From Bacillota bacterium (GTDB taxonomy: Bacteria; Bacillota; Clostridia; Oscillospirales; CAG-382): a DNA stretch of 64,000 nt. Below the pieces are notes generated by a model. The model worked only from the letters and a program-made list of their open reading frames with translations, was not told where the DNA came from and searched no databases. Of this stretch, positions 5,876 through 26,730 are shown piece after piece. Both the position numbers and the translations under genes were made by a program. The stretch lies in contig JAKPGJ010000049.1 in assembly GCA_029550965.1 (NCBI GenBank), positions 1 to 64,000 on the forward strand. Reading direction: 5' to 3'. Every line of letters starts with the position of its first letter. The stretch's first letter is position 1.

Positions 5876-5891
5876 CGGAAAGGAAAATCTT

Positions 5892-7352: not shown

Positions 7353-7394
7353 AAAAGAACGTATTTTTGATAAGAAAGGCGATTTTTTCGCAAA

Positions 7395-7973: not shown

Positions 7974-7994
7974 CAGAATTGCGGGTGAACAGTT

Positions 7995-10900: not shown

Positions 10901-11021
10901 GGTTTTCCTTTGCGATTTGCTGGAGAACGAGCTCGAAGAACTGCCGGTCAGAAACGGCGGCGTCCGTCTCCATGTAAAACCGTTTGAAATCATAACAGTA
11001 AAGGTTAAGGATAGAAAATGA
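7995..11021 (+). CDS. Alpha-mannosidase, glycoside hydrolase family 38
   Basis: This is a full-length cytoplasmic GH38 enzyme of 1008 residues without a signal peptide. The zinc site opens with GHTHIDVAWLW (His235, His237, Asp239), and the probable nucleophile is Asp349 in WLPDVFGYSAALPQI. The N-terminal lobe (about 1-200) and the long C-terminal beta domain match the intracellular mannosidases that remove alpha-linked mannose from imported oligosaccharides. A clean ribosome site (GGGTGA) precedes the ATG. The stop overlaps the isomerase start by ATGA. With the two genes that follow it makes a route from mannoside to fructose 6-phosphate. The linkage preferred cannot be read from sequence. 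Confidence 0.95.
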   Translation: MDVYYRYIEKVLSLLKNSIVAVSKPVENIFYKECSYKTGSGLPAIDDAFRPFGAGERWADKPDTHAWFYFQINIDKAEPPYYYELAVDTELDGWNVYNPQFLVYIDGKAVQGLDTNHRSLPLDVCGEAEVYIYAYSGSMAKNLLLNARINIIDQEVERLYYDILVPYEVLKFTEEDAKEYADIRRYLLNAVNMLDLREPLGEGFKNSVRQAAAYLHDAFYSTLKENPASAFCVGHTHIDVAWLWTLAQTKEKAQRTFSTVLKLMEKYPDFVFFGSQPQLYAYVKEEAPEIYERIKEMVKVGRWEPEGAMWVEADCNLTSGESLVRQILFGKRFFKEEFGIDSKILWLPDVFGYSAALPQICQKSGIDYFVTSKISWNDTNKMPYDAFFWKGIDGTKIFTYFLTAQDKEKGRKPVNYTTYVSTTDPKHLAGAYERFSQKELTDEVLVTFGWGDGGGGPTKKMLEIAERQRKGMPACPNVKYGRVIDFLNNLYHNVKDKPYLPEWAGELYLEYHRGTYTSAARNKKYNRKSELLYQNAELLSSIAKNLTALPYPAAALSDGWRTILINQFHDILPGSSIPEVYRESEQQYKTILNTADSIIQSAYQSIADNISTDGGILVFNPHSFVGSDIVMVDGKAVFAENIPPKGYKVVQPAEKLSEVILNGKTIENRFFIIEFDEAMQIKSLFDKRANRQVIAEGQRGNVLRVYEDLPFQYDCWNLEIYHKDKSWVVDDVASVEEVRNGARSGFRVVRRFMSSTITQNVWLYDDIDRIDFETEADWQEVNLILKAEFTLDINADSAVYDIQFGHTRRPTHCNTSWDQAKFEVCAQKYADLSDYGYGVSLINDCKYGYDIHGNTMKISLIKCSKYPNEFIDKGTHTFTYSLFPHPGDFRAAGTIRHAYYVNQPMTGMRVGKRAGVLPESYSFVSCDKENIVIETIKQSEDGDGIVLRMYESFNMHTDATLTFGFEAEKVFLCDLLENELEELPVRNGGVRLHVKPFEIITVKVKDRK

Positions 11022-11704
11022 AACGCTCAGAGATTAACGCGATTATGCGCGAAGCAATCGCTTTTATCAACAAAATGAACTTCAAGCTCCCGCCTTTTGC
11101 GTATTTTACGCCGGAGGAATGGAAAACCAAGGGTCACGAGTACGACGAAATCCGCAACAATATGCTCGGCTGGGATATTACCGACTACGGTCACGGCGAT
11201 TATGACAAAATCGGTCTTTTTCTGTTCACGCTGCGCAACGGCAACCTGAAGGACAAAAACTGCAAAAAGACCTACGCCGAGAAAATCCTGATTTCCAAAG
11301 AGAACCAGTACAGCCCGATGCACTTCCACTGGAACAAGATGGAGGATATCATCAACCGCGGCGGCGGCAATCTGATGATTCAGGTGTATAACGCGACCGA
11401 GGACGACGGGCTGGCGGACACGCCGGTCGAGGTGATGCTGGACGGCTGCAGAAAGGTGGTTCCCGCCGGAACCGTGCTTCGGCTTACGCCCGGCGAGAGC
11501 ATTACGCTTCCGCCCCGCCAGTATCACGCTTTCTGGGCGGAAGAAGGGCACGGCATGGTGCTCATCGGCGAGGTGTCGATGGTCAACGACGACAACACGG
11601 ACAACCGCTTCTACGAGCCGCAGGGACGCTTTCCGACCATCGAAGAGGACGAATCTCCGCTGTATCTTCTCTGCAACGAGTATCCCGCGCCCGACAATGA
11701 TTAA
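11018..11704 (+). CDS. D-lyxose ketol-isomerase (probable D-mannose isomerase)
   Basis: The 228-residue protein is a cupin of the D-lyxose isomerase family. The metal site is visible as HFHWNKMED (His102, His104, Glu109) with His170 in PPRQYHAFWAE. Characterised family members interconvert D-lyxose and D-xylulose and also D-mannose and D-fructose with Mn(II). Its start overlaps the alpha-mannosidase stop by four bases, and a fructokinase follows 61 bases later. Context therefore favours mannose-to-fructose isomerisation here (inference). It shows no similarity to phosphomannose isomerase in the region inspected. Confidence 0.9.
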   Translation: MKRSEINAIMREAIAFINKMNFKLPPFAYFTPEEWKTKGHEYDEIRNNMLGWDITDYGHGDYDKIGLFLFTLRNGNLKDKNCKKTYAEKILISKENQYSPMHFHWNKMEDIINRGGGNLMIQVYNATEDDGLADTPVEVMLDGCRKVVPAGTVLRLTPGESITLPPRQYHAFWAEEGHGMVLIGEVSMVNDDNTDNRFYEPQGRFPTIEEDESPLYLLCNEYPAPDND

Positions 11705-11710
11705 AAAAAT

Positions 11711-11731
11711 TGTGAGCCGTAACGGCTCACA
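11711..11731 (+). terminator. Hairpin between isomerase and fructokinase genes, possible weak terminator
   Basis: TGTGAGCCG / CGGCTCACA forms a 9-bp stem with a TAA loop, followed by only four T residues and preceded by seven A residues. It may attenuate or process the transcript rather than end it, because the kinase continues the same pathway. Confidence 0.5.
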
Positions 11732-11765
11732 TTTTGCGATGATTGACTGATTAGGGGAACTTACC

Positions 11766-12626
11766 ATGAAAATATTAGCGTTTGGCGAAATACTCTGGGA
11801 CATATTCGGCGACAAAAAGGAAATCGGCGGCGCGCCCTTCAACTTCGCGGCGCACGCGGCGAAACTGGGCACGGACGTATCTATGGTTTCCGCGCTCGGC
11901 AGCGACGAACTCGGAAAAAACGCGCTGACATTTGTTCGGAAATACGGCATCCGTAACGATTATATCGCCTTCACCGATAAACCGACCGGCTTTTGCAAAG
12001 TCACGCTTTGCGGCGAAAAGCCGCGCTACGAACTGGTGACCGGCGTCGCATACGATTACATTCCCTGCCCCGCTGTCTGCGGTCCGTATGACGCGTTTTA
12101 TTTCGGCACGCTGGCGCAGCGGAACTCCGCCTCGCGCGCTACGCTTGAAACGCTGCTGAAGAGCGTGAACGCGGCGGAAGTTTTCTTTGACATCAACATC
12201 CGTCAGAACTTCTATTCAAAAGAGATCGTCGAAAACAGCTTAAAGCATACGACCATTCTGAAAATCAGCAGAGAGGAAATGCAGGTTTTCGCCGAACTGG
12301 GGATTGCCGACGCTTCCTCACCGGAAGCGCTTTGCGTTTCGCTTGCTAAAAAATACCCGATTCAAATAATAATTGTCACACTGGACAAAGACGGCGCGCT
12401 TTTATACACAAAAGAAGGCTTTCTTTATTCAAGAAAGCCGGAGAGCAGGGTTGTTTCCACCGTTGGCGCCGGCGACAGCTTTTCCGCCTGCTTTTTGGTG
12501 AACTTCCTGAACGGCGCAGACCTCGAAACCTGCCTGGACAGAGCGGTGATTTTAAGCGACTATGTCGTCACTAAACTCGGCGCCGTGCCGGAGTATGAAG
12601 AAGGGCTGAAAAACCGAATCGTATAA
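11766..12626 (+). CDS. PfkB-family sugar kinase, probable fructokinase
   Basis: The 286-residue protein has the two PfkB signatures: an N-terminal GEILWDIF...GGAPFNFAAHAAKLG substrate-binding region (about 7-38) and a C-terminal VSTVGAGDSFSACFLV motif with the catalytic Asp (near 240). The GGAPFNFA form is typical of fructokinases. Phosphorylation of the fructose made by the preceding isomerase would give fructose 6-phosphate. AGGGG lies eight bases before the ATG. A hairpin separates it from the isomerase but no promoter is obvious, so partial read-through is expected. Confidence 0.88.
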   Translation: MKILAFGEILWDIFGDKKEIGGAPFNFAAHAAKLGTDVSMVSALGSDELGKNALTFVRKYGIRNDYIAFTDKPTGFCKVTLCGEKPRYELVTGVAYDYIPCPAVCGPYDAFYFGTLAQRNSASRATLETLLKSVNAAEVFFDINIRQNFYSKEIVENSLKHTTILKISREEMQVFAELGIADASSPEALCVSLAKKYPIQIIIVTLDKDGALLYTKEGFLYSRKPESRVVSTVGAGDSFSACFLVNFLNGADLETCLDRAVILSDYVVTKLGAVPEYEEGLKNRIV

Positions 12627-12767: not shown

Positions 12768-13610
12768 TTAACCGGCAGTTTCTTCCATTTCAAGGTATTG
12801 TTCTTCATAGAGCGAGATTTCCGTAACATCGCTCAAGTCGGCATAATATATAATCTCGCTTTTTGTGGCTTCTACAACAAGCGTAGACGTATAACGGCTG
12901 TTGTACAGTATCTTCCGGTCTTTCGGAACATGGTTCGCGATGAACGCATCGTTATACTTCGAGTATTCACGTTTGATGATACTTCTTCTGGCTTCTATAT
13001 ACTGATCGATTATATCGGGATCGTTGCCGTTTTGCGAATACTCAGAATTGTACGGGTCAAAACCGGTTTCGTCCCTTATCATCTGTTCCAGAGCGGCTGC
13101 ATTCAAATCTTTCAGCCAAAGCCAGACCGTGATGACCTCGTCATCGGAAATGCTGTTCAGCTTCGCCCGCAGCGCGGCGTTTATTTTGCCGGATAATTCT
13201 ACAGGCGCGTCGTCCGGCATATTATTCGGCGTGTTAACCGGCGGGACGTCGGGCGTTTGGTTCGGTTCGTTGTCCGGCGCGCTTTCCGGCGTTTTGTTTT
13301 GCTTGTCGTCCGGATCGGCCGGCGTTTTTTCGGGAATGTGATTGGGCGTTTTATCCGGCGTGTTGTTTTGCGTCACGCGCGGCGTGTTATCCGGCGCGGC
13401 GTCCGGCGTTTTGCGCGGCGTGTTATCCGGCGCATTATCCTGTGCGTTATCGGTTTCTGCGTCGGAGATTTTCGCATCGAGCATTATCGAATCGTTCGTT
13501 TGGGCGTAGGAAGGTCTCCCGTTTGCCGTCCCCATCGTGAGCAATACTGCGGCGAGACCCAGGCAAACAGCCAAACAGCGGAAACCTGCCCTTCTGATTT
13601 TGTCAGTCAT
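12768..13610 (-). CDS. Secreted protein with a proline/threonine tetrapeptide repeat tract
   Basis: The 280-residue protein begins with a basic stretch and a hydrophobic helix ending near GTANGRPSYAQ, consistent with a signal peptide. Residues about 55-137 form a low-complexity tract with proline at nearly every fourth position (units such as DNTP, RKTP, DAAP, NNTP, DKTP). At DNA level this is a degenerate 12-base repeat. The C-terminal ~140 residues form a globular domain (DDEVITVWLWLKDLNAAAL, then RSIIKREYSKYNDAFI and a beta-rich end) seen in uncharacterised secreted proteins of Clostridia. The tract probably acts as an extended wall-spanning linker. Function unknown; no anchor motif is visible at the C-terminus. 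Confidence 0.7.
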   Translation of the reverse strand: MTDKIRRAGFRCLAVCLGLAAVLLTMGTANGRPSYAQTNDSIMLDAKISDAETDNAQDNAPDNTPRKTPDAAPDNTPRVTQNNTPDKTPNHIPEKTPADPDDKQNKTPESAPDNEPNQTPDVPPVNTPNNMPDDAPVELSGKINAALRAKLNSISDDEVITVWLWLKDLNAAALEQMIRDETGFDPYNSEYSQNGNDPDIIDQYIEARRSIIKREYSKYNDAFIANHVPKDRKILYNSRYTSTLVVEATKSEIIYYADLSDVTEISLYEEQYLEMEETAG

Positions 13611-14842: not shown

Positions 14843-14913
14843 CTCTCTTTTACCTCTTACTTCTTCTCTCTTATCTCTTACTTCTTACTTCTTCCCTCTT
14901 ACCTTTTACTTAC
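14843..14913. repeat. Degenerate heptamer array (YYTCTTA), copy 1
   Basis: About nine to ten imperfect units of YYTCTTA (CTTCTTA, TCTCTTA, CCTCTTA) cover this stretch, with occasional one-base slips. The same unit forms a longer array at 56654-56808. The right edge runs into the last codons and stop of the LuxC gene at 14899. Confidence 0.85.
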
Positions 14914-16095
14914 CGTAACTTCCCTCGACATACTTCTGATAAGGTCGTATCCGTCCCAAATCAGGGAAAAATCCATGGTCTTTCCGATCGGAACGACGCG
15001 GTCGACGCCTTTCGGACGGAACGTATCAACAAAGCGCTCTATTTCCGCCGGATCGACGCCGTAATAGGACAGCGTCTGGAGTTTATCGCCGCAGAGCGGA
15101 AGGATCTCTTCAAGATTTTCCGCTTTATATTCGAGAAAGTAGCCGCAGCTGTCCAGATAATCCATCAGGTTCTCGTTCAGGCTTTCCACCCGGACGCGAA
15201 GAATCAGGTTGTCAACGCTCTCCTGCCTGCGCGCGCCCTCATTTGCCGCGGCGAGCTTATATAGGGCGGCGAGCTTCGCGACCGCGCGCGCCGGCTGCAA
15301 AGCGTATTTTTCCTTTACGACCGGATACAGGTTATCCCAAAACTCCGCTTGCGCTTTTGCAACGTTTTTGCCCATCCAGACAACGACGCGCGGCGAGGTG
15401 CAGGCGTTCTGGTCGGACAAGTAGGTATCGTTGTAAAAGTTTTGCGCGATTATGTGTTTGTTGTCCGCTTCAAGGTATTTGTCCGCGTTGATGACGCACA
15501 TAGAATACCGGTCGGCAAAGCAGATTTCGTTCGCGCGGGGTTTGAGCGGCGCTTTGCGGATTTCCGCAATCGTATTGTCCCCGCCCCAAATTACGCGCGT
15601 GTCGCACTTTCGCGACAGATAAGCGTTTATTTCCTCGCTTCGCTCGTACCGCACAAGGCAGATATAAGGCCTGACCGCTTCTGTAAGCGACCGGTTGATT
15701 GTTTCGCAGATTATGTCAACCTGCTCAAAATCTTTCGAGGGCAGACGAACGATGTTCGCGTTTCCGGCAAGCAGTCCGGCGACCAGCGAATAGGCAAAGT
15801 TGACCGCCACGTTGGAGGGTGCGATGTGGAACACGACACCCCTGCCAAGCCGGTTGGCTACGTCCGCGTACGGTTTCTTTAGCGATTCGACCGACGCTTT
15901 CCGGCACCAAAACGCGAAGGTGGCGACGTCGGGATACCGCTTTGTCCTTTGGTCCGCGGACAAAGTCTTTGAAAATGCGGATAAAAACTCGATGACGGTG
16001 CTGTCAAAAATCCGAAAGGGCGGCAGTTTGTCGATGTTCTCTAAAATCTCGGCGCTGCCTACCAAAAAGGCGAGTTTATCTGAAATTGACCGCAT
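14899..16095 (-). CDS. LuxC-type acyl reductase (aldehyde-forming)
   Basis: Start at 16095 gives a 398-residue protein beginning MRSISDKLAFLVGSAEIL, in line with the LuxC family; the longer frame upstream reads through the LuxE coding end. The family nucleophile is Cys232 in SDQNACTSPRVVVW. NAD(P)-binding features precede it (GVVFHIAPSNVAVNFAYSLV, about 106-125). LuxC enzymes take an acyl group from an acyl-protein (LuxE) and reduce it to an aldehyde. It overlaps the LuxE gene by 20 bases and ends the operon. No luciferase genes are present, so the aldehyde must serve another purpose. The last codons (S-K-R-stop) lie inside a heptamer repeat. Confidence 0.87.
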   Translation of the reverse strand: MRSISDKLAFLVGSAEILENIDKLPPFRIFDSTVIEFLSAFSKTLSADQRTKRYPDVATFAFWCRKASVESLKKPYADVANRLGRGVVFHIAPSNVAVNFAYSLVAGLLAGNANIVRLPSKDFEQVDIICETINRSLTEAVRPYICLVRYERSEEINAYLSRKCDTRVIWGGDNTIAEIRKAPLKPRANEICFADRYSMCVINADKYLEADNKHIIAQNFYNDTYLSDQNACTSPRVVVWMGKNVAKAQAEFWDNLYPVVKEKYALQPARAVAKLAALYKLAAANEGARRQESVDNLILRVRVESLNENLMDYLDSCGYFLEYKAENLEEILPLCGDKLQTLSYYGVDPAEIERFVDTFRPKGVDRVVPIGKTMDFSLIWDGYDLIRSMSREVTVSKR

Positions 16096-17161
16096 ACGTA
16101 TCGCTGCACCCCCTGATTTCGGCGTTTTTGAGCCTGCCGATGACCTTGAAGTATTTGCCCTTCCTGCCGCACGGACAGTCGTCCTCGCCGAGAATAACCC
16201 CTTCGTCCTCGGTGAGCAGCGAATGTCCGGGGTAGGATTCCGGCAGCATGGAGACAACCTGAATAATGCCCGGCTCGCCGAATCCGCAGGGTGAAAAATC
16301 CGCCGCCCGGCGGGTGACGACGTCCGAGAAAATGCTTGCGTGCAGGTGTCCGCGCTCGCATTCCATATAAATGCACCCGGTCTGCTCGACCATGCCGTAG
16401 TAGTCGTGGATGCTGGTTAGCCCGCAGACTTCATGGAGTTTTCTGTTAAACTCGTCATGGGAAACCGCCTCGTTGACCAGCTTCTTCCAGCCGCCGCCGT
16501 GAATCAGGATTCCGTCGGATAAATCCAGCCTGCGGTTAAGCCGTACAAGCTCTTTATAAAAATGCTGCCATATCATAAAGGTAAAGCCAAAAAGCAAAAT
16601 CTTTTTCCCCTGATGCTTTTCTAAGAACGCTTCGACCGCTTTGATATTTAGCTTCATCTCGTCGTCAAGCGCGTAAGCCTTGTCAGCGCCGAAGATGGAA
16701 AAGCCCAAGATGCCGGCGCCGCGCGCCGAGAACATCGCGCGGTCCTTGATGACCGACGGGCTGTCGATGATCAGCATCGGCATTCTGGAGGAACCGGTAA
16801 AATCGGACACGATTTTCACAAGCGTTTTCTGCTGGTTGCCGGCGGTCTTTTTATCAAGGTAAGTTTTCGAAACCGCCTGTCCGGTGGTGCCGGAAGAAGT
16901 CATGACCTTGAAAATCTCGGACCTGTCCACGCTGATAAGGTCTAACTCCTTAAACAGGCTGACCGGCAGAAAAGGAATGTCGTAATAAGTCTTGATTTGC
17001 TCCGGTTTTACGCCTACGGCGTCCAGCATTCTTTTGTACGGCCCGCACTGTTCATAGTGAAAAGCGGTAAGCCGGATAAGCCGTTCGGACAGCAGCTTTT
17101 CCTTTTCTTCTCTGCAGAGCGAATAGGGCGCTATTTTGAGTATCTCCTCGTAATCAATCAT
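16076..17161 (-). CDS. LuxE-type acyl-protein synthetase
   Basis: The ATG at 17161, seven bases after GGAG, gives 361 residues starting MIDYEEILKIAPYSL. The protein has the adenylating core of the LuxE family: TSSGTTGQAVSKTYLD near 87-102, an IHGGGWKKL stretch, YYGMVEQTGCIYME, and a late Cys-containing DDCPCGRKGKYFKVIGRLKN. Family members activate a carboxylate with ATP and hold it as a thioester for LuxC. It is translationally coupled at both ends (8 bases over the AMP-ligase, 20 over LuxC). The substrate is not necessarily a long-chain fatty acid, because homologues also occur in polysaccharide loci. Confidence 0.87.
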   Translation of the reverse strand: MIDYEEILKIAPYSLCREEKEKLLSERLIRLTAFHYEQCGPYKRMLDAVGVKPEQIKTYYDIPFLPVSLFKELDLISVDRSEIFKVMTSSGTTGQAVSKTYLDKKTAGNQQKTLVKIVSDFTGSSRMPMLIIDSPSVIKDRAMFSARGAGILGFSIFGADKAYALDDEMKLNIKAVEAFLEKHQGKKILLFGFTFMIWQHFYKELVRLNRRLDLSDGILIHGGGWKKLVNEAVSHDEFNRKLHEVCGLTSIHDYYGMVEQTGCIYMECERGHLHASIFSDVVTRRAADFSPCGFGEPGIIQVVSMLPESYPGHSLLTEDEGVILGEDDCPCGRKGKYFKVIGRLKNAEIRGCSDTYAVNFR

Positions 17162-18563
17162 AAAACTTCTCCAACGCGGCATAGAGTGTTTTCCCCGATT
17201 CGTTCTTGGGGATCGATTCGATATACTTCACCCGGAAAGCAAGACGGTTCAGGTTCAATTTCTCCTCTAAGAAGTTCTGGACCTCTTTTTCTTTGGTTTT
17301 GTCGGTAATAAACACGACCATTTCGTCGTCTTTTCCGGCGCAGGCGGCGTCCATATCGCCAAAGCCGCTCTTGATAAGCCGCTCGGTTTCATCCAAGTTG
17401 ACGCGGCTGCCGAATATCTTTAAGAAGCGCTTCTTGCGTCCCACAATGTAGTAAAATCCGTCTTTGTCCCGCCTCGCCATGTCGCCGGTGATAAGCACGC
17501 CGTTTCTTTCGTCGCCTTTGGCGAGGTCGCCGCCGCTTTCCGCGTAGCCCAGCGTGACGTTCGCGCCTTCGTAAACCAGCTCGCCGACCGCTTCGGGCTC
17601 GGTTATTTCGTTCCCGTCAGCGTCAATCAGTCTGAACTTTCCGCCCGGAATGGCGATGCCCATGCTGCCAACTTTTGCCAGCGCGTATTCAGGCGGCAGG
17701 TACGCCATTCGCGCGGTCGCTTCGGTCTGCCCGTACATCACGATGAATTTCCTGCCGGTTTCCGCCGCGTACTCGGCGAACTTCCTGTGCAGTTCGGGCG
17801 ACAGCTTTCCGCCAGCCTGCGTCATGGTTCGGAGCGACGGCAGGTCCATGCGGAAGAATCTGAGCTTGTCGAGCATTTCGTAAATATACGGCACGCCGCC
17901 GAACGAGGTGGCCTTATAATCTCTGAACTGCTGCCAGAACTCTTTCTGCATCAGCGTTTTCTGCGTCAGAATCATCGATGCGCCGACATACAGATGCGTG
18001 TTTATAATCGACAGCCCGTATGTGTAGCTCATCGGCAGTGTCGTGATGGGGCGCTCGGTTTCGTCAAGGTCTAAATACTGCGCGATCGACTTGGTATTTG
18101 CCTGTATATTCTGATAGCTCTGCCGAACCAGCTTCGGGCTGCCGGTCGAGCCGGAGGTGGTCAAAAGCAGCGCGAGTTCGTCATACAAAGGGAATACTTT
18201 TTCGTAAGGCGTTTTTAACAGTGCGTAGCCGTTCGATTCGTACGCGACGGAATACCCGAACTCGTTCTTCATGCGCGCGGGCAGCCAGAGGTAATCCGGC
18301 TTGTAGCTTTCGATGAGGTTGTTCAGCAGCATCCTGTCAAGATGCGCATCCAGCATGACCGGGACAATTCGGTTGTTGAGAAACGCGACGTATCCGAGCA
18401 GAGAGCCGTACTCGTTGGAACACAGGTTAAAAACCAAACAACGGTCTTTTACTTTTTCCGCCAGCTTTTGCGAATCATGCAAAAGAGCCGAATACGGGAT
18501 TTTCTCGCCGTATTCGATTATGACCGCTGTGTTGTCCTTAAACTGATTCAATCTCCACATCAT
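17154..18563 (-). CDS. AMP-dependent acyl/aryl ligase, probably loading the adjacent carrier protein
   Basis: The 469-residue member of the adenylate-forming family has the P-loop-like LLLTTSGSTGSPKLV, the YGQTEATARMAY motif, the hinge region with TGDMARRDKDGFYYIVGRKKRFLKIFG, and the C-terminal catalytic Lys in NESGKTLY. The C-terminal domain is short. It starts inside the end of the carrier-protein gene (26-base overlap), the strongest clue that it charges that carrier. A DltA-like aminoacyl role was considered but there are no dltB or dltD partners. Substrate acid unknown. Either ATG at 18563 or 18560 could be used. Confidence 0.85.
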   Translation of the reverse strand: MMWRLNQFKDNTAVIIEYGEKIPYSALLHDSQKLAEKVKDRCLVFNLCSNEYGSLLGYVAFLNNRIVPVMLDAHLDRMLLNNLIESYKPDYLWLPARMKNEFGYSVAYESNGYALLKTPYEKVFPLYDELALLLTTSGSTGSPKLVRQSYQNIQANTKSIAQYLDLDETERPITTLPMSYTYGLSIINTHLYVGASMILTQKTLMQKEFWQQFRDYKATSFGGVPYIYEMLDKLRFFRMDLPSLRTMTQAGGKLSPELHRKFAEYAAETGRKFIVMYGQTEATARMAYLPPEYALAKVGSMGIAIPGGKFRLIDADGNEITEPEAVGELVYEGANVTLGYAESGGDLAKGDERNGVLITGDMARRDKDGFYYIVGRKKRFLKIFGSRVNLDETERLIKSGFGDMDAACAGKDDEMVVFITDKTKEKEVQNFLEEKLNLNRLAFRVKYIESIPKNESGKTLYAALEKFYD

Positions 18564-18783
18564 ATTTTTTTAATATATCCTTGCCCTTTTCAAAGGAACT
18601 GAAATCGATGATGTCGTCGGTGTCCATCATGATTCCAAAGGCGTCCTCAATCGCGGAGACCAAACTCATATGTCCGATCGAGTCCCACGCTTTGATTTGC
18701 TGATACTCCAGGCCTTCCACTTCGCTCTCGCCGATGCCGAAAGTGGTTGTGAATGCGTTGATGTATTTCTCAAGATTTGTCAT
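18538..18783 (-). CDS. Acyl carrier protein, specialised
   Basis: The 81-residue acidic protein has the phosphopantetheine site in KAWDSIGHMSLV, with Ser35 as attachment residue, and four predicted helices. The motif DSIGH differs from the DSLD of housekeeping AcpP and is typical of carriers dedicated to a special pathway. Its ATG overlaps the transketolase subunit stop (ATGA) and the next gene, an AMP-ligase, starts inside it, so the three are co-translated. No acpP lies in the plsX-rnc region of this window. Confidence 0.92.
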   Translation of the reverse strand: MTNLEKYINAFTTTFGIGESEVEGLEYQQIKAWDSIGHMSLVSAIEDAFGIMMDTDDIIDFSSFEKGKDILKKYDVEIESV

Positions 18784-19754
18784 TGTTTTCTCTCCAAACT
18801 GATCAGTACTTTTTCCGCAATCTGCTTTCCGGTCAGGCCGTACTGCTCGAGCAAATACGGATAGTCCGCCGCGTGGCAGTAGCAGTCCGACATTCCGATC
18901 ATCAATTGAGGCGGTCTGTGCGCTTGGCCCGCAAGCGCTTCCGAGACCGCGGAACCCAGGCCGCCGATTACGCCGTGCTCCTCGACGGTGACAATCAGCT
19001 TCGCCCCGCGCGCCGCGTTGACCGCTTCCATATCCAGCGGCTTAATCGTGTGCATATTGACGACCCTGCAGGAAACGCCCTGCTGCGCGAGCAGTTCGGC
19101 GGCTTGCAGGGAATGATAGACCATTGTGCCGGTCGCGATGACGGCAACGTCGCTTCCGTCGCGAAGCGTCACCGCTTTGCCGACTTCAAACGCGTAATCC
19201 TCTTTGTAAACCGACGGATTGTTCATGGCGCCCGTCAGGCGCAGGTAAACCGGCCCTTTTATTTTTGCCGCGGCGAGCGTGGCTTTGACGGTTTCGGCGC
19301 AGTCGGCCGGCGAGAGCACGACGATGTTCGGAATCGCGCGCATTACGGCGATGTCCTCAAAGCTCATATGCGTCGCGCCCAGAATGCCGACGGATAGCCC
19401 CGCGGTAAGCCCGACCAGCTTGATGCCCAGCTTCATATAGCCCATGTTCACTTTTACCTGATCGGCGCTGCGCAGCGACGCGAAGGCCGCGTACGTCGTC
19501 GCGAAGGGGGTAAATCCCTCTTTCGCAAAGCCCGCGGCGACGCCGACCATGTTCTGCTCGGCTATGCCGAGGTTGTACAGCCTGTCCGGGAAAGCGGATT
19601 TGAAGCGCTCGAGCCCGGAAAAAAAGGTCAGGTCGGACGTCAGGATGACGACCTTGTCGTCGATCGCCGGCAGTTCCAGCGCGGCAAGACCGAAAGCGCC
19701 GCAGGAGCCAAGTCTGGACCACATACGGATATTGGAGGGGGTAAAATCAATCAT
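18780..19754 (-). CDS. Transketolase, C-terminal (pyrimidine-binding) subunit
   Basis: The 324-residue protein covers the pyrimidine-binding and C-terminal domains. The TPP-activating Glu is Glu66 in NLGIAEQNMVGVAAGFA, followed by the YAAFASLRSADQV and GLSVGILGATHMSFEDIA blocks. Together with the preceding gene it equals one full transketolase split in two. Split transketolases are common in Clostridia for the pentose phosphate pathway, but embedding between an SDR and a carrier-protein/LuxCE module implies a pathway-specific carboligation (inference). It overlaps both neighbours by four bases. Confidence 0.93.
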   Translation of the reverse strand: MIDFTPSNIRMWSRLGSCGAFGLAALELPAIDDKVVILTSDLTFFSGLERFKSAFPDRLYNLGIAEQNMVGVAAGFAKEGFTPFATTYAAFASLRSADQVKVNMGYMKLGIKLVGLTAGLSVGILGATHMSFEDIAVMRAIPNIVVLSPADCAETVKATLAAAKIKGPVYLRLTGAMNNPSVYKEDYAFEVGKAVTLRDGSDVAVIATGTMVYHSLQAAELLAQQGVSCRVVNMHTIKPLDMEAVNAARGAKLIVTVEEHGVIGGLGSAVSEALAGQAHRPPQLMIGMSDCYCHAADYPYLLEQYGLTGKQIAEKVLISLERKQ

Positions 19755-20572
19755 GCCGTCACCTCCGCCATTGCCTGCTCGTACTGCTGCTGCGACAGCC
19801 TGCCGTTGTGCCAGTACGGGTTGTTTTCCATAAAGGATACGCCTTTGCCCTTAACGGTCCGCGCGATGACCGCATACGGCTTGTCTTTCTTAACCGACAG
19901 CGCTTCCAGCAGCTGTTCGACCGAGTGTCCGTCTACGCTGACAGCGTCCCAGCCGAAGCTATTCCATTTGTAAACAAGCGGCTCGATTGATAGAATATCG
20001 TCGGTCGGTCCGTCGTACTGCAGACGGTTCTCGTCAATGATGACGGTCAAATTGCTGAGTTTGTAATGCGAAGCGGACATGGCGGCCTCCCAGACCGAGC
20101 CTTCGTTGCATTCGCCGTCGCCGAGCAAAACGAAAACGCCGGAGGTTTCGTTGCCTTTACGTTTCAGCGCCAGCGCCGTGCCGACGCCCAAAGAAAGCCC
20201 CTGTCCAAGGCTTCCGCTCGAAAACTCAATGCCCTTCTCCGGATTCATCGAAGGGTGTGCGTATAAAAAAGTTTCGTTCTTTTTAAAAGTCATCAGTTCA
20301 TCATCGGTAATCATGCCGATTTGCTTTAGCGCGGCGTACTGCGCCATCACGCCGTGCCCTTTGCTCAAAATAAAGCGGTCGCGCGCTTCGTCGGTCGGGT
20401 TTTGAATATTAAACTTCATCACGCCGAGATAAAGCGCCGCCATAATCTCTATCATAGACAGCGCGCCGCCGACGTGCGCGCCGTTGTTGCCCGCGTTGTA
20501 GGTCATTCTGATGACGTCCTTTCGCATCTCTTTGGACGCCGCAAGGCATTTTTTTATAATATTCTGATCCAT
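19751..20572 (-). CDS. Transketolase, N-terminal (thiamine diphosphate-binding) subunit
   Basis: Start at 20572 gives 273 residues beginning MDQNIIKKCLAASKEMRKDV; the longer upstream frame is a shadow of the SDR gene. The thiamine diphosphate/Mg motif runs from GDG at 151-153 to Asn182 (TVIIDENR). SKGHGVMAQYAAL (70-82) and SSGSLGQGLSLGVG are typical of this half. Its start shares one base with the SDR stop (TAATG) and its stop overlaps the second subunit by four bases. It must work with the adjacent subunit. Confidence 0.93.
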   Translation of the reverse strand: MDQNIIKKCLAASKEMRKDVIRMTYNAGNNGAHVGGALSMIEIMAALYLGVMKFNIQNPTDEARDRFILSKGHGVMAQYAALKQIGMITDDELMTFKKNETFLYAHPSMNPEKGIEFSSGSLGQGLSLGVGTALALKRKGNETSGVFVLLGDGECNEGSVWEAAMSASHYKLSNLTVIIDENRLQYDGPTDDILSIEPLVYKWNSFGWDAVSVDGHSVEQLLEALSVKKDKPYAVIARTVKGKGVSFMENNPYWHNGRLSQQQYEQAMAEVTA

Positions 20573-21309
20573 TACGCCGATCCTCCGTCGACTCTTATGA
20601 CCTGCCCGTTGATAAACGAAGCGTCGTCCGAAGCAAGAAAGAGCGCGGCTTTCGCGATTTCCTCCGGTTTTGCGAGCCGTTTCATCGCCGAGCTTTCCAC
20701 CATTTCTCTGCCCGCTTTTTCCTCCATTTGCGCCGCCATGCCGGTATCCGTCAGTCCCGGCGCGATTGCGTTGACCCGAATGCCGTGCTGGGCGACTTCG
20801 GACGCGAGCGTTCTGGTCCATGCCATCAATGCGGCTTTGGAAACGCCATACGCGCTGTTCCCCGGCTTTAAATCCAATCCGGCAATCGAGCCGAGGTTAA
20901 TTATGCAGCCGGACCTCTGACGCGTCATGATTTTGAGCACCAGCTGGGTCAGCTCCATCGCGGAGAATAGGTTGATTTCGAAAACCTCTTTGATTTTCGA
21001 TACCGGCGTCATGCTGAACAGCCCGCCGTGCGCGACCCCGGCGTTGTTGATTAAGATATCGATTCTCGTTTTGTTCTGATAAAACGCTTTGAATACCGCT
21101 TTCATTGCTTCGGTATCCGTCATATCGAAATACACGGGCGTAATGGAAACGCCGTATGTTTCGGCAAGACTTCGCATTTCCGCATCAAACGCGTCGTTCT
21201 TCTTGCGGGCGTGCGCGATAATCGAAGCGCCGCCGCGCGCGAACGCCTCGACCATGGCTCGTCCGATGCCTCTGTTTGAACCAGTTATGAAACACACCTT
21301 GCCGGTCAA
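20572..21309 (-). CDS. Short-chain dehydrogenase/reductase (FabG-like)
   Basis: A strong AAGGAGG (plus-strand 21318-21324) lies eight bases before a TTG at 21309. This gives a 245-residue protein starting (M)TGKVCFITGSNRGIGRA; the longer frame from 21357 begins with another TTG but lacks a ribosome site and the usual SDR N-terminus. The cofactor motif TGSNRGIG, NNAG, and the catalytic Ser plus YGVSK are all present. It resembles 3-oxoacyl-ACP reductases but could act on any keto group. Between a sugar aminotransferase and a transketolase, it may reduce a ketone made by the pathway (inference). Confidence 0.88.
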   Translation of the reverse strand: MTGKVCFITGSNRGIGRAMVEAFARGGASIIAHARKKNDAFDAEMRSLAETYGVSITPVYFDMTDTEAMKAVFKAFYQNKTRIDILINNAGVAHGGLFSMTPVSKIKEVFEINLFSAMELTQLVLKIMTRQRSGCIINLGSIAGLDLKPGNSAYGVSKAALMAWTRTLASEVAQHGIRVNAIAPGLTDTGMAAQMEEKAGREMVESSAMKRLAKPEEIAKAALFLASDDASFINGQVIRVDGGSA

Positions 21310-21363: not shown

Positions 21364-22500
21364 CTATTTCGTCACATAGTCAACCACGCATCGGATGACG
21401 GTCTGAACATCCTCGCGCGTCAGTCTTAAATGCATGGGCAGCGAAATGACGTGGTCGCTGACATACGCCGCTTTCGGACAGGTTCCCTTCGCGTACGAAT
21501 ACATCCGGTATTGCGTGTTGTCCACGTAATGAACGCCCGGATAAATCTCATGCTCGTTAAGGTAAGCCATCAGGCCGTCCCGGTCCTCGACGATAATCTG
21601 GAACAGGTGGCGCGAGGACTCGCAGTTTTCTGGAACCTCGACCAGCTTGATTTTGTCGGGATACGGCTTGAAGCCTTCTGCGTACCATTCCGCAAGCTGC
21701 CTGCGGTAGGCGTTATCTTTATCCAAATGCGGCAGCTGCGCGAGCGCAATGGCCGCCATGACCGCGTTTCCGTTGTACTTGTATCCGACATACTCGACGT
21801 CGTACTTCCATTTATACGCGCCGTTCGCGTTGACCGAGCGGGCGTAGGTGTCTTTGTTGATGCCCAGCCAGGCCTTCTTGCGCGCGACCGCGTCGCAGTC
21901 CGCGTCTTTAAAGCAGATCATGCCGCTGTCGCCGGTCGGAAGGTTCTTGACCGCCTGAAAGGAATAAACGATTACGTCCGCTTCCTTGCCGGCCGTCTCG
22001 CCGTTGATGCGGGTTCCCGCCATGTGCGCCGCGTCTAATATCAGCTTTAAGCTGCGCTTTTTGCAGATTTCCACGATTTTGTCAAGGTGGCCGGCGTTGC
22101 CGCCCATGCCGACAAACATGACCGCTCTCGTCTTTTCCGTAATCCGTTCCTCGACGCTGGCGGGGTCAAGGCAGAGCGTGTCGTCAACATCCGCGAAAAC
22201 CGGTTGTAAGTTGGAAAGAAGAATAGCATGGTTGGTGGAAACGAAGGTCAGCGGCGTGGTGATGATTTCGTCGCCGGCCGCCCAGCCGTACTTCTCTTTG
22301 AAAATCTCCACCGCAAGGTTTAATCCCGCCGTCGCGGAGTTCAGAAAGTACGCGTGCGGAAGCCCTGTGTATTCCTTCCATTTATCCTCAAACTGAACGG
22401 TCATGTATCCCATGCCTGTCCAGCCTTTTTCCAGACACAGCCGGATATTCTCAAGACATGCGTCCACATCAAACGTCGGAACAAACAATTGTATCGCCAT
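21364..22500 (-). CDS. DegT/DnrJ/EryC1/StrS-family PLP aminotransferase
   Basis: The 378-residue protein is full length for sugar aminotransferases of this fold. It has LNSATAGLNLAVEI near residue 53, the Asp/His of LILDAAHMAGTRI near 155-167, and the PLP-binding Lys185 in SFQAVKNLPTGDSGM. The active-site neighbourhood (FQAVKN where SFHATKN is usual) is slightly divergent. Family members aminate keto-sugars of nucleotide sugars at C3 or C4. It directly follows rfbB, whose product is dTDP-4-keto-6-deoxyglucose, so an amino-dideoxy sugar is a reasonable product; another keto substrate made by the transketolase branch is an alternative. Confidence 0.9.
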   Translation of the reverse strand: MAIQLFVPTFDVDACLENIRLCLEKGWTGMGYMTVQFEDKWKEYTGLPHAYFLNSATAGLNLAVEIFKEKYGWAAGDEIITTPLTFVSTNHAILLSNLQPVFADVDDTLCLDPASVEERITEKTRAVMFVGMGGNAGHLDKIVEICKKRSLKLILDAAHMAGTRINGETAGKEADVIVYSFQAVKNLPTGDSGMICFKDADCDAVARKKAWLGINKDTYARSVNANGAYKWKYDVEYVGYKYNGNAVMAAIALAQLPHLDKDNAYRRQLAEWYAEGFKPYPDKIKLVEVPENCESSRHLFQIIVEDRDGLMAYLNEHEIYPGVHYVDNTQYRMYSYAKGTCPKAAYVSDHVISLPMHLRLTREDVQTVIRCVVDYVTK

Positions 22501-22530: not shown

Positions 22531-23550
22531 TTATCGGCGCGCGTACATTCTTTCGTAATAGTTTTTATATTCGCCGGCGAGAATGTTCTCCCACCAGGAA
22601 CGGTTGTTAAGATACCACTGCACGGTTTTCTGAAGGCCGTCCTCAAACTCGGTCTGCGGCGACCAGCCCAGCTCGCTTGTGATTTTGGTGTTGTCGATCG
22701 CGTACCGCAAATCGTGTCCGGGGCGGTCGGCGACGAAGGTGATCAGGCTCTCCGGCTTGCCGAGAATTTTTAGGATCAGCTTGACAATCTCGATGTTGGA
22801 TTTTTCATTGTGCCCGCCGATGTTGTACACCTCGCCCGCTCTGCCGCTGCGCATGACAAGATCGACTGCGGCGCAGTGATCCTCGACGTACAGCCAGTCG
22901 CGGATATTCTCGCCCTTGCCGTAAACCGGAAGGCTCTGGTCGTTTAGCGCCCGCGTAATCATCAGCGGGATCAGTTTTTCCGGAAAATGGTACGGGCCGT
23001 AGTTGTTCGAGCAGCGGGAAATCGTAACCGGAACCTGATAGGTTCTGTAATACGCCAGCGCCAAAAGGTCTGCCGCCGCTTTGCTCGCCGAATAAGGCGA
23101 CGAAGCGCGCAGCGGCGACGATTCGGTAAAGAACAGGTCTTTTCGGTCTATCGGCAGGTCGCCGTAAACCTCGTCGGTCGAAACCTGGTGAAAGCGTTTT
23201 ACGCCGTACTGCCGGCAGGCGTCCAGCAGGACCTGCGTGCCGAACACGTTCGTATGCAGAAAAACACCCGGATTCTCAACCGAGCGGTCGACGTGGCTCT
23301 CGGCCGCGAAGTTCGCGACGATGTCGAACTTCTCTTCCTCGAATAGCTTGAAAACGCACGCTCTGTCGGTAATATCGCCCTTTACGAACCGGAAGCTCGG
23401 ATGATTGAGCGCGCTCTCCAGATTCGCAAGATTGCCCGCGTACGTCAGCGCGTCAAGGCAGACGATTCTGTCATCGGGGTGGTTTTTCAGTTGATAGTAT
23501 ATAAAATTACTGCCGATAAAACCGGCGCCGCCGGTAACCAGTATATTCAT
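22531..23550 (-). CDS. rfbB: dTDP-glucose 4,6-dehydratase
   Basis: The 339-residue extended SDR has the NAD motif TGGAGFIGSNFI at residues 6-17, the DEVYGDL substrate segment, YSASKAAADLL with the catalytic Tyr/Lys, and SRCSNNYGPYHFPEKLIPL typical of RmlB. It converts dTDP-glucose to dTDP-4-dehydro-6-deoxyglucose. It is nine bases downstream of rfbC in the rfbA-rfbC-rfbB order. No rfbD (final rhamnose reductase) is present in the window. Confidence 0.97.
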   Translation of the reverse strand: MNILVTGGAGFIGSNFIYYQLKNHPDDRIVCLDALTYAGNLANLESALNHPSFRFVKGDITDRACVFKLFEEEKFDIVANFAAESHVDRSVENPGVFLHTNVFGTQVLLDACRQYGVKRFHQVSTDEVYGDLPIDRKDLFFTESSPLRASSPYSASKAAADLLALAYYRTYQVPVTISRCSNNYGPYHFPEKLIPLMITRALNDQSLPVYGKGENIRDWLYVEDHCAAVDLVMRSGRAGEVYNIGGHNEKSNIEIVKLILKILGKPESLITFVADRPGHDLRYAIDNTKITSELGWSPQTEFEDGLQKTVQWYLNNRSWWENILAGEYKNYYERMYARR

Positions 23551-23559
23551 AAAAACACC

Positions 23560-24117
23560 TTATTCAGCGTAAATAAAGTTGCAGTCGCTGTCCTTTAAAA
23601 ACGGAGCGTTCCTATCCTTTTCCGAAAGAATCGGGTCGGCAATCTTCCAGTCCACGCCGATTTCCGGGTCGTCGAAGCGGATGCTGCGGTCGTGCTCCTT
23701 GCTGTAAGGATTGTCGCATTTATACTCGAACTCGACGTTGTCGGTCAGCGTCAGAAAACCGTGCGCAAACCCGCGCGGAATAAAAAGCTGCAGTTTGTTC
23801 GCCGCGGAAAGGATTACCGATACCCATTTTTTGTAGGTCGGCGAGCCTTTTCTTAAATCAACCGCGACGTCCAAGACCGCCCCGGCGGTGCAGCGGACCA
23901 GCTTCGCCTGCGCCATCGGGTCTATCTGAAAATGAAGCCCGCGCAGCGTGTCTTTTTTCGCCGTAAAGCTGTGATTGTCCTGCACGAAATGCGCGTCGAT
24001 TCCCAGTTTTTTCAGTTTTTCATAGGACCACGACTCCATAAACCAGCCGCGGTGGTCTCCAAAAACATCCGGTTCGATAAGATACACGCCCGGTATTGCC
24101 GTTTCTGTCTTTTTCAT
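23560..24117 (-). CDS. rfbC: dTDP-4-dehydrorhamnose 3,5-epimerase
   Basis: The 185-residue cupin carries the RmlC signatures DHRGWFMESWS (about 21-31), FVQDNHSFTAKKDTLRGLHFQ with the catalytic His region, and FIPRGFAHGFLTLTDNVEF. It epimerises C3 and C5 of the 4-keto-6-deoxy sugar. It lies 20 bases after rfbA. Its presence without rfbD suggests that the L-configured 4-keto intermediate goes to another enzyme or that rfbD lies elsewhere. Confidence 0.96.
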   Translation of the reverse strand: MKKTETAIPGVYLIEPDVFGDHRGWFMESWSYEKLKKLGIDAHFVQDNHSFTAKKDTLRGLHFQIDPMAQAKLVRCTAGAVLDVAVDLRKGSPTYKKWVSVILSAANKLQLFIPRGFAHGFLTLTDNVEFEYKCDNPYSKEHDRSIRFDDPEIGVDWKIADPILSEKDRNAPFLKDSDCNFIYAE

Positions 24118-24137: not shown

Positions 24138-25022
24138 TTAATATATGATTTTTCCTTCCGCAACTTTTTTCAGATGCTCGCCGTAAGGCGATTTTCCGTA
24201 TAGTTCAGCGGAAGCGAGCAGTTGTTCTTTGTCAATCCAGTTGCGCAGATAAGCGATTTCCTCCGGCGCGGATATTTTTACGCTCTGCATTTTCTCTATC
24301 ATCTGCACGAACGCGGACGCTTCGATCAGGCTGTCCATCGTGCCCGCGTCTATCCAGGCAAATCCCCTGCCGAGAATAATGGCTTTCAGGGCGTTATGCT
24401 GCAGATACAGCTCGTTGATCGCGGTTATCTCGAGTTCTCCGCGCTCGGACGGCCTGATACGCTTCGCGAATTCCACTACGCGGTTGTCATAAAAATAAAG
24501 TCCGGTGATGCAGTAGTTGGATTTCGGCTTTTTGGGTTTCTCCTCAACCGAGAGCACCTCGCCGTTTTCTCCGATTTCCATTACGCCGAACCGTTCGGGG
24601 TCGTTTACGTAATGCCCGAATATCGTCGCGTAACCGTTCTTCGCGTTTTCTACGGCCGTCTGCAGCTTGCTCCCCAGCCCGTTGCCGTAAAAAATATTGT
24701 CGCCCAGTATCATCGCGCACATATCGCCGCCGATGAATTCTTCGCCGATGAGAAACGCCTGCGCGAGCCCGTCGGGCGAAGGCTGCACCGCGTAGGAAAG
24801 GTTGATTCCGAACTGTTCGCCGCTGCCGAGCAGCCTTTTGAAGTTCGGGATGTCCTCCGGCGTGGAGATGATTAAAATATCCCGAATATTGGCAAGCATC
24901 AGCGTGGAAAGCGGGTAATAAATCATCGGCTTGTCGTAAACAGGCAAAAGCTGTTTTGACGTGACCTTTGTCAGCGGATAAAGCCTTGTCCCCGCGCCGC
25001 CTGCAAGTATGATTCCTTTCAT
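24138..25022 (-). CDS. rfbA: Glucose-1-phosphate thymidylyltransferase
   Basis: The 294-residue nucleotidyltransferase has [26 protein letters not shown] at its N-terminus (positions 8-33 contain the GxGTRL-x-P-x-T and K-x-LLP motifs), [12 protein letters not shown] near 109-120, and [21 protein letters not shown]. This is the RmlA family. It makes dTDP-glucose from glucose 1-phosphate. It is the first gene of the operon running to LuxC at 14899, with a TATAAT box about 45 bases upstream. Confidence 0.97.
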
Positions 25023-25146: not shown

Positions 25147-26661
25147 TTATATTTCTCTTCTAAAAACCGTCCGCAGGAAGTAGGCGCGCAGATCGGAGAG
25201 GAACTCTCTTTCAAACAAAAGCGTCGTAATCAGAATATACAGCGCGCTGAGCAGCATCGCGGCAGCCGCGGCGGTCAGCCAGTTGACGACGCTTGGCGTT
25301 TCGATCGGGAAATAAACGCTTGCCAGATATGCCGCGAAAATGCCGGCCGCGGAAATCGCAAGATGCTTGTACATCTTCTCGGTCTGCAGATACGGAACCA
25401 GTCGTTTGATTTTATAGTGCTGGTAGATAAAGTTTGCGGCATAGAACACGATTAAACCCGTGATAATCAGCGTGTAATCAATCGCACCCAGCGCGAAGGA
25501 AAGCGCGATCGAAACGACCGCGGTGACCACCGGCTGCGCCCAGGTTTCCCGAAAGAAGCCGAACGTGGAAACGGCGATATTATAGGGGATCCGGTAAACG
25601 GAAACCATGCTGTAAACCACGATTAAAACCGCAAGGCTGGCGTTGATGTAATCCGCGTCGTCGACGCTGGACGTATAAAGGGTTACAAAGGGGACGAGCA
25701 GATACATCGTGCACATATACAATAAGGTGTTGAACATGGTAAAGATATACTGAAAGAAGCAGAAAACGCGGTTGATGTTCTTTTGATCCCCGCTGGCAAT
25801 CAGATTGCCGAATCCCGGCGCGAACGACGAATACAGCGCGTTTCCGATTAAGGCCAGCGACGAGGAAACCAGCGTGTAGACGTTGAAGATGCTCGCCTGA
25901 ATAAACTCGCCGTACAGAATCATCATGATGACGGACGGAGAAGCCGCGACCGCGCTGTGCGAAACTTCGTTCGCAAGCGAATAGTTTCTGCCCGGTATTT
26001 TGGATAGTGTTGTGTTCTTTTTTTTCGGTATTTTATCTTTGTAGTATTTCGCAAAACAGCTTTTTAGGTATGCGATTTTCACAATACAGCCGGCAAAGTA
26101 CCAGACAAACATCCAGATAAAGGTCAGCCGCAGATAGATGGTCAGAAACAAAAGCGAATAATAAATTGTCTGCTCGATGAGAGAAGCGATCGAGATGATG
26201 TATTTTCGCTGGTCGGCCGTAAACATTATCCGAAACTTCGCGGTAAACAGAAGGTCAAGAAAGCTCCTGAACCCCAATAATACGAACGAAAGAAATATCA
26301 AAAACGGGCTTATGCCGGAAGTTACGATAAACGCGGTGACGACGGCGCCCGCGAGCATTATGATCAAAAACAGGAACGCGATTCTTTTGAAGAAGTTCTC
26401 GGCCGCGGATAGCTTTTCGCCGATTTCCTGATAGTTGTTCTCGGCGACCGGCTTATAAAGCGAAAAGACCGCGGCGGTGCTCGCGCCCGCTTGAAGCAGG
26501 AGCATAATGTTAAGGATTTGGGTGATGGTCGCGGAAAGCCCGTTTACCTCGGAGCCGTAATATAGCAAAATCATTCTTGGCGCGAAAAATCCAAGAATAA
26601 TGGTTGCCGTATAAAACGCGATGTCCCATATAAAGTTTTTGATGGCTGAACTGCTTCTCAT
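25147..26661 (-). CDS. Polysaccharide flippase (MOP superfamily, Wzx-like)
   Basis: The 504-residue protein is almost entirely hydrophobic, with about 12-14 membrane segments and no signal peptide. It is in the size range of Wzx/MATE-like lipid-linked oligosaccharide exporters. It has its own consensus promoter at 26702-26730 and precedes rfbA by 124 bases, so it appears as a separate transcript serving the same locus. No glycosyltransferase or polymerase gene lies next to it in the window, so the substrate is not identifiable. It differs from the SpoVB-like protein at 34938. Confidence 0.85.
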   Translation of the reverse strand: MRSSSAIKNFIWDIAFYTATIILGFFAPRMILLYYGSEVNGLSATITQILNIMLLLQAGASTAAVFSLYKPVAENNYQEIGEKLSAAENFFKRIAFLFLIIMLAGAVVTAFIVTSGISPFLIFLSFVLLGFRSFLDLLFTAKFRIMFTADQRKYIISIASLIEQTIYYSLLFLTIYLRLTFIWMFVWYFAGCIVKIAYLKSCFAKYYKDKIPKKKNTTLSKIPGRNYSLANEVSHSAVAASPSVIMMILYGEFIQASIFNVYTLVSSSLALIGNALYSSFAPGFGNLIASGDQKNINRVFCFFQYIFTMFNTLLYMCTMYLLVPFVTLYTSSVDDADYINASLAVLIVVYSMVSVYRIPYNIAVSTFGFFRETWAQPVVTAVVSIALSFALGAIDYTLIITGLIVFYAANFIYQHYKIKRLVPYLQTEKMYKHLAISAAGIFAAYLASVYFPIETPSVVNWLTAAAAAMLLSALYILITTLLFEREFLSDLRAYFLRTVFRREI

Positions 26662-26701: not shown

Positions 26702-26730
26702 AGTATAGCACAAATATAACCGCCGGTCAA
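26702..26730 (-). promoter_or_regulatory. Sigma-A-type promoter for the flippase gene
   Basis: TTGACC (26725-26730) and TATACT (26702-26707) on the minus strand are 17 bases apart, about 40 bases before the start codon. Confidence 0.72.

Follow-up and report, generated by a model that had tools for sequence, protein, structure and literature searches.

A split transketolase clade linked to LuxE, LuxC and acyl carrier genes in surface-glycan loci

Seven genes for acyl and carbon-chain chemistry follow one another on the minus strand (14899-21309) of the 64,000-nucleotide stretch of DNA analyzed here, which is referred to as the window (contig JAKPGJ010000049.1 of assembly GCA_029550965.1, a gut-type Bacillota bacterium of the order Oscillospirales). 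They encode, in the order of transcription, a short-chain dehydrogenase/reductase (SDR), the N-terminal and C-terminal halves of a transketolase (TK-N and TK-C), an acyl carrier protein (ACP), an AMP-forming acyl ligase (AMP-ligase), a LuxE-family acyl-protein synthetase, and a LuxC-family acyl reductase. An earlier note on this DNA proposed that these proteins convert an acid to an aldehyde, extend it by two carbons to a ketol, and then reduce it. The gene set fits this logic, and the genes are supported as a functional unit that is conserved among surface-glycan loci. Very probably, the set makes an unusual small acid with which an amino sugar of the cell surface is decorated. The most informative feature lay outside that note: the transketolase of the module has lost the residues that contact the sugar and phosphate. 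The transketolase clade is the new element, whereas the five-gene acyl core is already known from glycan islands.

The seven-gene module and its recurrence

The SDR gene (20572-21309, 245 amino acids (aa); Pfam adh_short_C2, 213 bits) starts with TTG at 21309, ahead of which lies a GGAGG sequence, and is separated by 54 bases from an aminotransferase gene. It shares one base (20572) with the gene for the ThDP (thiamine diphosphate)-binding TK-N (19751-20572, 273 aa; Transketolase_N, 132 bits), which in turn overlaps TK-C (18780-19754, 324 aa; Transket_pyr, 114 bits, and Transketolase_C, 107 bits) by 4 bases (19751-19754). TK-C overlaps the ACP gene (18538-18783, 81 aa) by another 4 bases (18780-18783), and the ACP gene overlaps that of the AMP-ligase (17154-18563, 469 aa; AMP-binding, 148 bits) by 26 bases (18538-18563). 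The AMP-ligase gene runs 8 bases (17154-17161) into the LuxE gene (16076-17161, 361 aa; Pfam LuxE, 187 bits), or 29 bases if LuxE begins at a possible earlier start, 17182. LuxE and LuxC (14899-16095, 398 aa, start codon ATG at 16095; Pfam LuxC, 106 bits) share 20 bases (16076-16095). The coordinates and family searches thus bear out seven genes with overlaps of 1 to 26 bases, as noted earlier. Upstream of the SDR, on the same strand, are genes for a DegT aminotransferase, rmlB, rmlC, rmlA, and a probable flippase.

The small carrier has no Pfam match. It is taken to be an ACP because its AlphaFold model has a pLDDT of 94 and the PDB matches of this model are nearly all ACPs; Ser35 lies within a DSIGHM motif. 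The catalytic motifs that the earlier note had picked out are indeed intact: Ser35 of the ACP and Cys232 of LuxC are invariant in the relatives (43/43 and 55/55, respectively), and the ThDP residues of the transketolase are kept in the window. The same holds for Cys352 of LuxE (49/49) and Lys458 of the AMP-ligase (45/45). The catalytic Tyr154 of the SDR is kept in all 22 transketolase-adjacent SDRs; these cluster in a tree but do not make up a single clade.

When scanned for LuxC, about 85,000 species genomes yielded 58 loci, mostly from metagenome-assembled genomes and many of them cut, in which open reading frames were called, matched to the window proteins, and used to build profiles. The gene labels in these loci (designated by L numbers) are profile matches to the window proteins and their neighbours, and some partners may have been missed among the neighbours that bear no label. 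The main counts refer to the 37 of these LuxC loci that exceed 14 kb. LuxE is present in all 37 of them, the AMP-ligase in 35, the ACP in 34, an SDR in 31, and the split transketolase in 21. In 20 of 26 cases, an SDR gene lies next to the TK-N/TK-C pair. A gene order close to that of the window (SDR, TK-N, TK-C, ACP, AMP-ligase, LuxE, LuxC, with at most one gene inserted) is found in L019, L040, L043, L044, and L113. When all loci are considered, those bearing the transketolase span six phyla: Bacillota, Pseudomonadota, Bacteroidota, Spirochaetota, Myxococcota, and Melainabacteria. Named strains among the LuxC loci include Selenomonas ruminantium S137, Prevotella sp. tf2-5, and Curvibacter lanceolatus, which carry the transketolase, and Treponema bryantii XBD1002, which has none within the stretch of its locus that was retrieved. 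As the arrangement recurs across phyla, it is reasoned that it did not arise by chance; the genes are linked in unrelated genomes, and the scattering that would have spoken against the earlier proposal is not seen.

The 58 loci were collected via LuxC, and less biased checks were added in the order of the window, in Treponemataceae, and in Bacillota. The window's order was covered by 394 genomes; apart from the source genome, seven of them hold a LuxC of this family, six with usable flanks. All three of these flanked loci that look like glycan loci, with amino-sugar or NeuB genes, carry SDR, TK-N, and TK-C; the three lower-scoring ones do not. One of the three glycan-type loci, L113, has the gene order of the window plus DegT and GNAT genes. 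In Treponemataceae, 10 of 274 genomes carry LuxC and two carry a module-type transketolase, in both cases with a LuxC no more than about 5.2 kb away on that contig. The Treponema locus L093 has the order DegT, GNAT, ACP, AMP-ligase, thioesterase, LuxE, LuxC, SDR, TK-N, TK-C, together with rmlB, rmlA, and rmlC. Relatives carry a thioesterase or GNAT gene between the AMP-ligase and LuxE, and the window has no such gene. Among the matches listed for 398 Bacillota genomes, with the first five candidates per genome scored, one other module-type transketolase exceeded the cut-off, that of locus L102, which is described further below. The window's own family lacks the module, its 63 genomes giving only a weak hit, which suggests that the module was gained horizontally.

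LuxC also occurs in other settings. In five similar Treponemataceae genomes (G105, G108-G111), there is no transketolase within about 10 kb of LuxC, and the gene is apparently outside a glycan locus. In the Treponema loci L088, L090, and L092, LuxE and LuxC accompany an ACP, a FabA-profile match, and a conserved 439-aa protein, and these loci are apparently not glycan-related. An acetolactate-synthase (ALS)-like thiamine enzyme is found in 7 of the 37 long loci, one of which also has the transketolase, so that 27 of the 37 have some thiamine-dependent carbon-joining enzyme. The ALS-like enzyme adjoins NeuB, a nonulosonate synthase, in the LuxC loci L005, L011, L015, L017, L022, L027, L094, and L114, mostly where there is no transketolase; as it is often paired with NeuB, it is not a secure candidate for an exact substitute of the transketolase.

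The split transketolase clade

The best PDB match of TK-N is the split transketolase 6yak (E 9e-70). The module copies share the two-chain layout and the ThDP residues of this Carboxydothermus hydrogenoformans enzyme (6yaj/6yak). The splitting itself, pointed out in the earlier note, is not a special feature, because the housekeeping transketolase of the same genome is also split. The latter is encoded on contig 25 and is the closer match to the canonical family; thus, the module copy is not the only transketolase of the genome, a possibility that had been raised as a test of the proposal.

The roles of individual residues in human transketolase are well established. By alignment to the human enzyme (3mos) and to the C. 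hydrogenoformans enzyme, 33 module copies were compared with 31 housekeeping split copies. The catalytic glutamate, E366 in human numbering, is present in all copies of both groups (33/33 and 31/31). The window TK-N keeps the equivalents of human His37, His77, His110, and His258; the first, second, and fourth of these are kept in 28/28 module copies and H110 in 23/28. In contrast, the window TK-C carries the substitutions H416T, D424L, R474A, and S345F. H416 and D424 are each found in 0/33 module copies and 31/31 housekeeping copies, R474 in 2/33 against 31/31, and S345 in 8/33 against 25/31. The C. hydrogenoformans enzyme, unlike the module copies, keeps the equivalents of H416, D424, and R474. 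R318 is present in most module copies and not in the window copy, where the alignment is uncertain. In a quick tree, the module and housekeeping transketolases split cleanly (local support 100).

Based on this alignment and on what is known of the human enzyme, it appears that the module transketolase keeps ThDP chemistry and has lost its sugar and phosphate contacts. The enzyme probably joins carbon chains on a substrate other than sugar phosphates, one that cannot be deduced from annotation. H110 contacts the C1 hydroxyl of the donor, and its retention in most module copies favours a hydroxyacetyl donor. An alternative is that this is a spare pentose-phosphate transketolase that by chance came to lie in a glycan operon, and the family matches of the protein are to transketolases throughout. 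However, it belongs to a separate clade in which the sugar and phosphate residues are lost, its linkage recurs in six phyla, and a canonical split copy is present elsewhere in the genome. This explanation is disfavoured and very improbable.

The acyl core and the proposed hydroxyacyl route

The core of ACP, AMP-ligase, reductase, LuxE, and LuxC is met elsewhere as a clustered set in a surface-glycan locus. It is carried by 98 Aeromonas strains in flagellar glycosylation islands, in which the reductase is a 3-oxoacyl-ACP reductase and the ligase an AMP synthetase (PMC7874193). Similar genes in about 70 Enterobacteriaceae strains are labelled fatty acid synthesis (PMC4875605). In the portions of these two papers that are accessible, the product is called only a possible component of a liposugar, no transketolase is mentioned, and the setting is one of pseudaminic acid and flagella instead of the dTDP-sugar genes of the window. 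The earlier statement that no known pathway has exactly this set therefore stands for the addition of the transketolase and not for the core. In the open-access literature, no paper was found that links a transketolase with LuxC/LuxE in a glycan cluster.

The family names LuxC and LuxE could point to a fatty aldehyde or bioluminescence-type pathway. Against this stand the glycan gene context, scores far below the equivalog cut-offs for true LuxC and LuxE (47 vs 750 bits and 86 vs 550 bits), and a search of the source genome (2.07 Mb, 97% complete, searched family by family) that returned no luciferase-family protein, as had been claimed, while its positive control matched in 10 of 14 genomes. 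Such a pathway is disfavoured, and we give it next to no credence. LuxC is present as a single copy in this genome. The claim that a Dlt partner is missing was likewise upheld: there is no Dlt-type MBOAT (DltB) for the ligase and carrier among the scanned operon proteins.

The architecture of the core varies among the loci. LuxE and LuxC are fused into a protein of about 755 aa in L022, L027, L028, L032, and L036, all from Bacteroidales, and in L114, the same layout as in RfbN of Vibrio cholerae. Besides this LuxE/LuxC-like RfbN, the V. cholerae O1 locus has an ACP and an alcohol dehydrogenase of a family other than that of the window SDR. A second LuxE/LuxC pair is found immediately after TK-C in L010, L012, L023, L042, and L112; in the first four, which are among the 58 loci, its LuxC forms a clade of its own (support 100/99), L112 lying outside the tree. 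This pair suggests two rounds of reduction within one pathway. A lactate/malate dehydrogenase-like gene lies directly 3' of LuxC in 5 of the 58 loci (L022, L024, L032, L043, and L044) and in L113. Its product exceeds the malate dehydrogenase cut-off in L022 and the lactate dehydrogenase cut-off in L113, which hints at 2-hydroxy acids.

The sugar genes of the window comprise a DegT/ArnB-type nucleotide-sugar aminotransferase (21364-22500, 378 aa; Pfam DegT, 272 bits) and, by sequence reading, an rmlB-type dTDP-glucose 4,6-dehydratase (22531-23550, 339 aa), an rmlC-type epimerase (23560-24117, 185 aa), and an rmlA-type glucose-1-phosphate thymidylyltransferase (24138-25022, 294 aa), all on the minus strand. 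Relatives occur in several loci for rmlB, in L020 and L093 for rmlC, and, beside the module, in L007, L020, L034, and L093 for rmlA. The aminotransferase has its nearest locus relatives in L020 and L093 (492 and 509 bits), and its best PDB match is TlmJ (5uid, E 1.5e-45), which serves a 4-amino-6-deoxy-L-sugar. No convincing RmlD was found in the source genome, where the best RmlD-family score, 47 bits, equals that of RmlB itself. The presence of rmlABC and an aminotransferase without RmlD points to amination of the dTDP sugar in place of its conversion to rhamnose. Acyltransferases of the GNAT or PglD-like type accompany 15 of the 21 transketolase loci. In L093 the GNAT gene sits between DegT and ACP, and the GNAT of L113 distantly resembles a dTDP-4-amino-4,6-dideoxygalactose acyltransferase; these enzymes argue for an acyl group that is attached to an amino sugar.

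On balance, we lean towards an operon whose product is an amino sugar, linked to a nucleotide and bearing a small hydroxyacyl group of a custom kind. The order of the steps, the donor, the acceptor, the product, and the target sugar given here are what we propose. Judging by their families, RmlA, RmlB, RmlC, and the DegT enzyme would produce a dTDP-4-amino-4,6-dideoxyhexose. In parallel, a short acid would be activated by the AMP-ligase and carried on the ACP, its carboxyl group would be converted to an aldehyde by LuxE and LuxC, the split transketolase would place a two-carbon hydroxyacetyl unit onto this aldehyde, and the SDR would reduce the resulting ketone. An N-acyltransferase like those that neighbour the module in related loci would then transfer the finished acyl group from its carrier onto the sugar's amino group. 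Starting from a C4 diacid, this route would yield a polyhydroxyhexanoyl group: 2,4,5,6-tetrahydroxyhexanoyl is predicted from malate and 4,5,6-trihydroxyhexanoyl from succinate. More tentatively, the module transketolase may represent a new clade of thiamine-dependent carboligases derived from split transketolases. These would pass a hydroxyacetyl unit on to a LuxE/LuxC aldehyde that bears no phosphate and is probably linked to the ACP, and would thereby build polyhydroxyacyl groups for surface amino sugars. The flagellin glycan of Treponema denticola bears a 2-methoxy-4,5,6-trihydroxyhexanoyl group, a structure that methylation of the product of malate plus two carbons would give. A link to this glycan is unsupported here, as five of the ten Treponemataceae genomes with LuxC have no transketolase near it and only two carry the module type.

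Related acyl groups are known from other surface glycans. Perosamine of V. cholerae O1 is acylated with tetronate, and this acylation is predicted to require wbeL, whose product has 471 aa (PMC3441752). WbeL is close to the window ligase (469 aa) in size. In the rfbKLMN/wbe system, which is not known to include a transketolase, the acyl group is thus short and hydroxylated and the sugar is of the 4-amino-6-deoxy type, as is proposed for the window. In the viosamine island of Pseudomonas syringae, a dTDP-sugar aminotransferase, an ACP, and an SDR-type reductase yield an N-acylated dTDP-4-amino-4,6-dideoxyhexose, with support from mutants (PMC3927599). There, a KAS III synthase builds the chain, and the accessible text lists no AMP-ligase, LuxE, LuxC, or transketolase; in the window, a Pfam scan found no KAS III among the operon genes. 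Another ACP-made acyl group on an amino sugar, 3,5-dihydroxyhexanoyl, is described, in the portion seen, for Flavobacterium psychrophilum (PMC6519341).

These parallels also bring in a simpler explanation, in which a tetronate-like core of ACP, AMP-ligase, LuxE, LuxC, and SDR makes a short hydroxyacyl group by reducing a diacid, by way of its semialdehyde, to the alcohol (malate, for example, would give 2,4-dihydroxybutanoyl). The transketolase would then provide something separate, either another small precursor or a further substituent. The Aeromonas group II islands have this core with no transketolase mentioned in the accessible text, and their glycan, a heptasaccharide, terminates in a 102 Da unit of unassigned identity (PMC7874193), a mass that we calculate to be that of a dihydroxybutanoyl residue. 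SDRs are also common in loci without transketolase (12/16), and the dehydrogenase-like gene after LuxC suits such a route. However, an SDR adjoins the transketolase in most cases, as given above. Moreover, the second LuxE/LuxC pair directly follows TK-C and in four loci has a LuxC of a separate clade, which points to a direct tie in function between LuxC and the transketolase. We therefore regard this simpler explanation as rather unlikely, though it deserves the most serious attention among the alternatives.

The earlier note spoke of a branched or acyl-derived sugar unit, of which the acyl-derived part is favoured. For a branched sugar, the transketolase would add its two-carbon unit to the 4-keto sugar nucleotide made by RmlB, and the acyl genes would act elsewhere. 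The rmlB gene is in the same operon, and thiamine-dependent carboligation onto keto sugars is known: YerE performs such a two-carbon addition for yersiniose. But among the 21 transketolase loci, rmlB is present in only 4, against 21 with the AMP-ligase and 19 with the ACP, so that the transketolase follows the acyl core and not the dTDP-sugar genes; in addition, the two-carbon addition would have to compete with the aminotransferase for this keto group. A branched sugar is thus quite improbable.

Several observations weigh against the hydroxyacyl route as proposed. An acid with a single carboxyl group would, once reduced by LuxC, leave no carboxyl group for the ACP. No N-acyltransferase is found among the scanned operon proteins, and the GNAT of the Treponema locus L093 gave no homologue in the source genome, an empty result that carries little weight. 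Ten of the 37 long LuxC loci are without any ThDP enzyme, and hence the acyl core works without one. Ten other split-transketolase paralogues of the same class have mostly lost H416 or D424 too; nine of these keep R474, and therefore the joint loss of all three contacts is largely specific to the module. Finally, the Bacillota locus L102 has a module-type SDR, TK-N, and TK-C with an ACP and an FkbH-like protein and without LuxE or LuxC, so the LuxC aldehyde is not always the acceptor of the transketolase, and this trio can serve another ACP-based glycan pathway. L102 (G350:C10:121800-141700) is a flagellin-glycosylation locus that contains, at 1051-12004, FliS, Maf-like proteins, the FkbH-like protein, the ACP, and an Antibiotic_NAT (aminoglycoside-acetyltransferase-like) acyltransferase.

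The module offers a concrete chemistry for the LuxC, LuxE, and carrier genes that in some glycan loci are labelled only fatty acid synthesis or liposugar. If the hydroxyacyl proposal is right, it adds a way in which surface sugars acquire hydroxylated acyl groups. By calculation, the residue mass of tetrahydroxyhexanoyl (162.05) is that of a hexose and the residue mass of trihydroxyhexanoyl (146.06) is that of a deoxyhexose; in mass spectrometry, such isobaric groups could have passed for sugars. Aldehydes without a phosphate might be accepted by this two-chain carboligase, which would make it of interest for biocatalysis as well.

Flanks of the operon

The operon set is flanked upstream by groEL (sequence reading) and downstream by a DNA glycosylase-like gene. 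Its first gene (25147-26661, minus strand) encodes a putative flippase-like multi-spanning membrane protein of 504 aa with about 10 hydrophobic segments by hydropathy; its function is suggested by its position, as it has no match in Pfam or NCBIfam. A consensus scan gives a candidate promoter 41 bases upstream of its start (26702-26730, minus strand), TTGACC-17-TATACT with an extended -10, as a matter of consensus match only. No glycosyltransferase is among the scanned operon proteins, and PADLOC returned no match to a defence system.

Beyond LuxC, at 12768-13610 on the minus strand, lies a gene whose product looks secreted. In this protein, a long Pro/Thr/Asp/Asn repeat (DNTPDKTPN-like) precedes a charged domain, and the NCBIfam matches are only weak. 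On the plus strand, at 7995-12626, an alpha-mannosidase, a D-lyxose/mannose isomerase-like protein, and a PfkB-type sugar kinase are encoded in tandem (sequence reading) and may constitute a route from mannose to fructose-6-phosphate.

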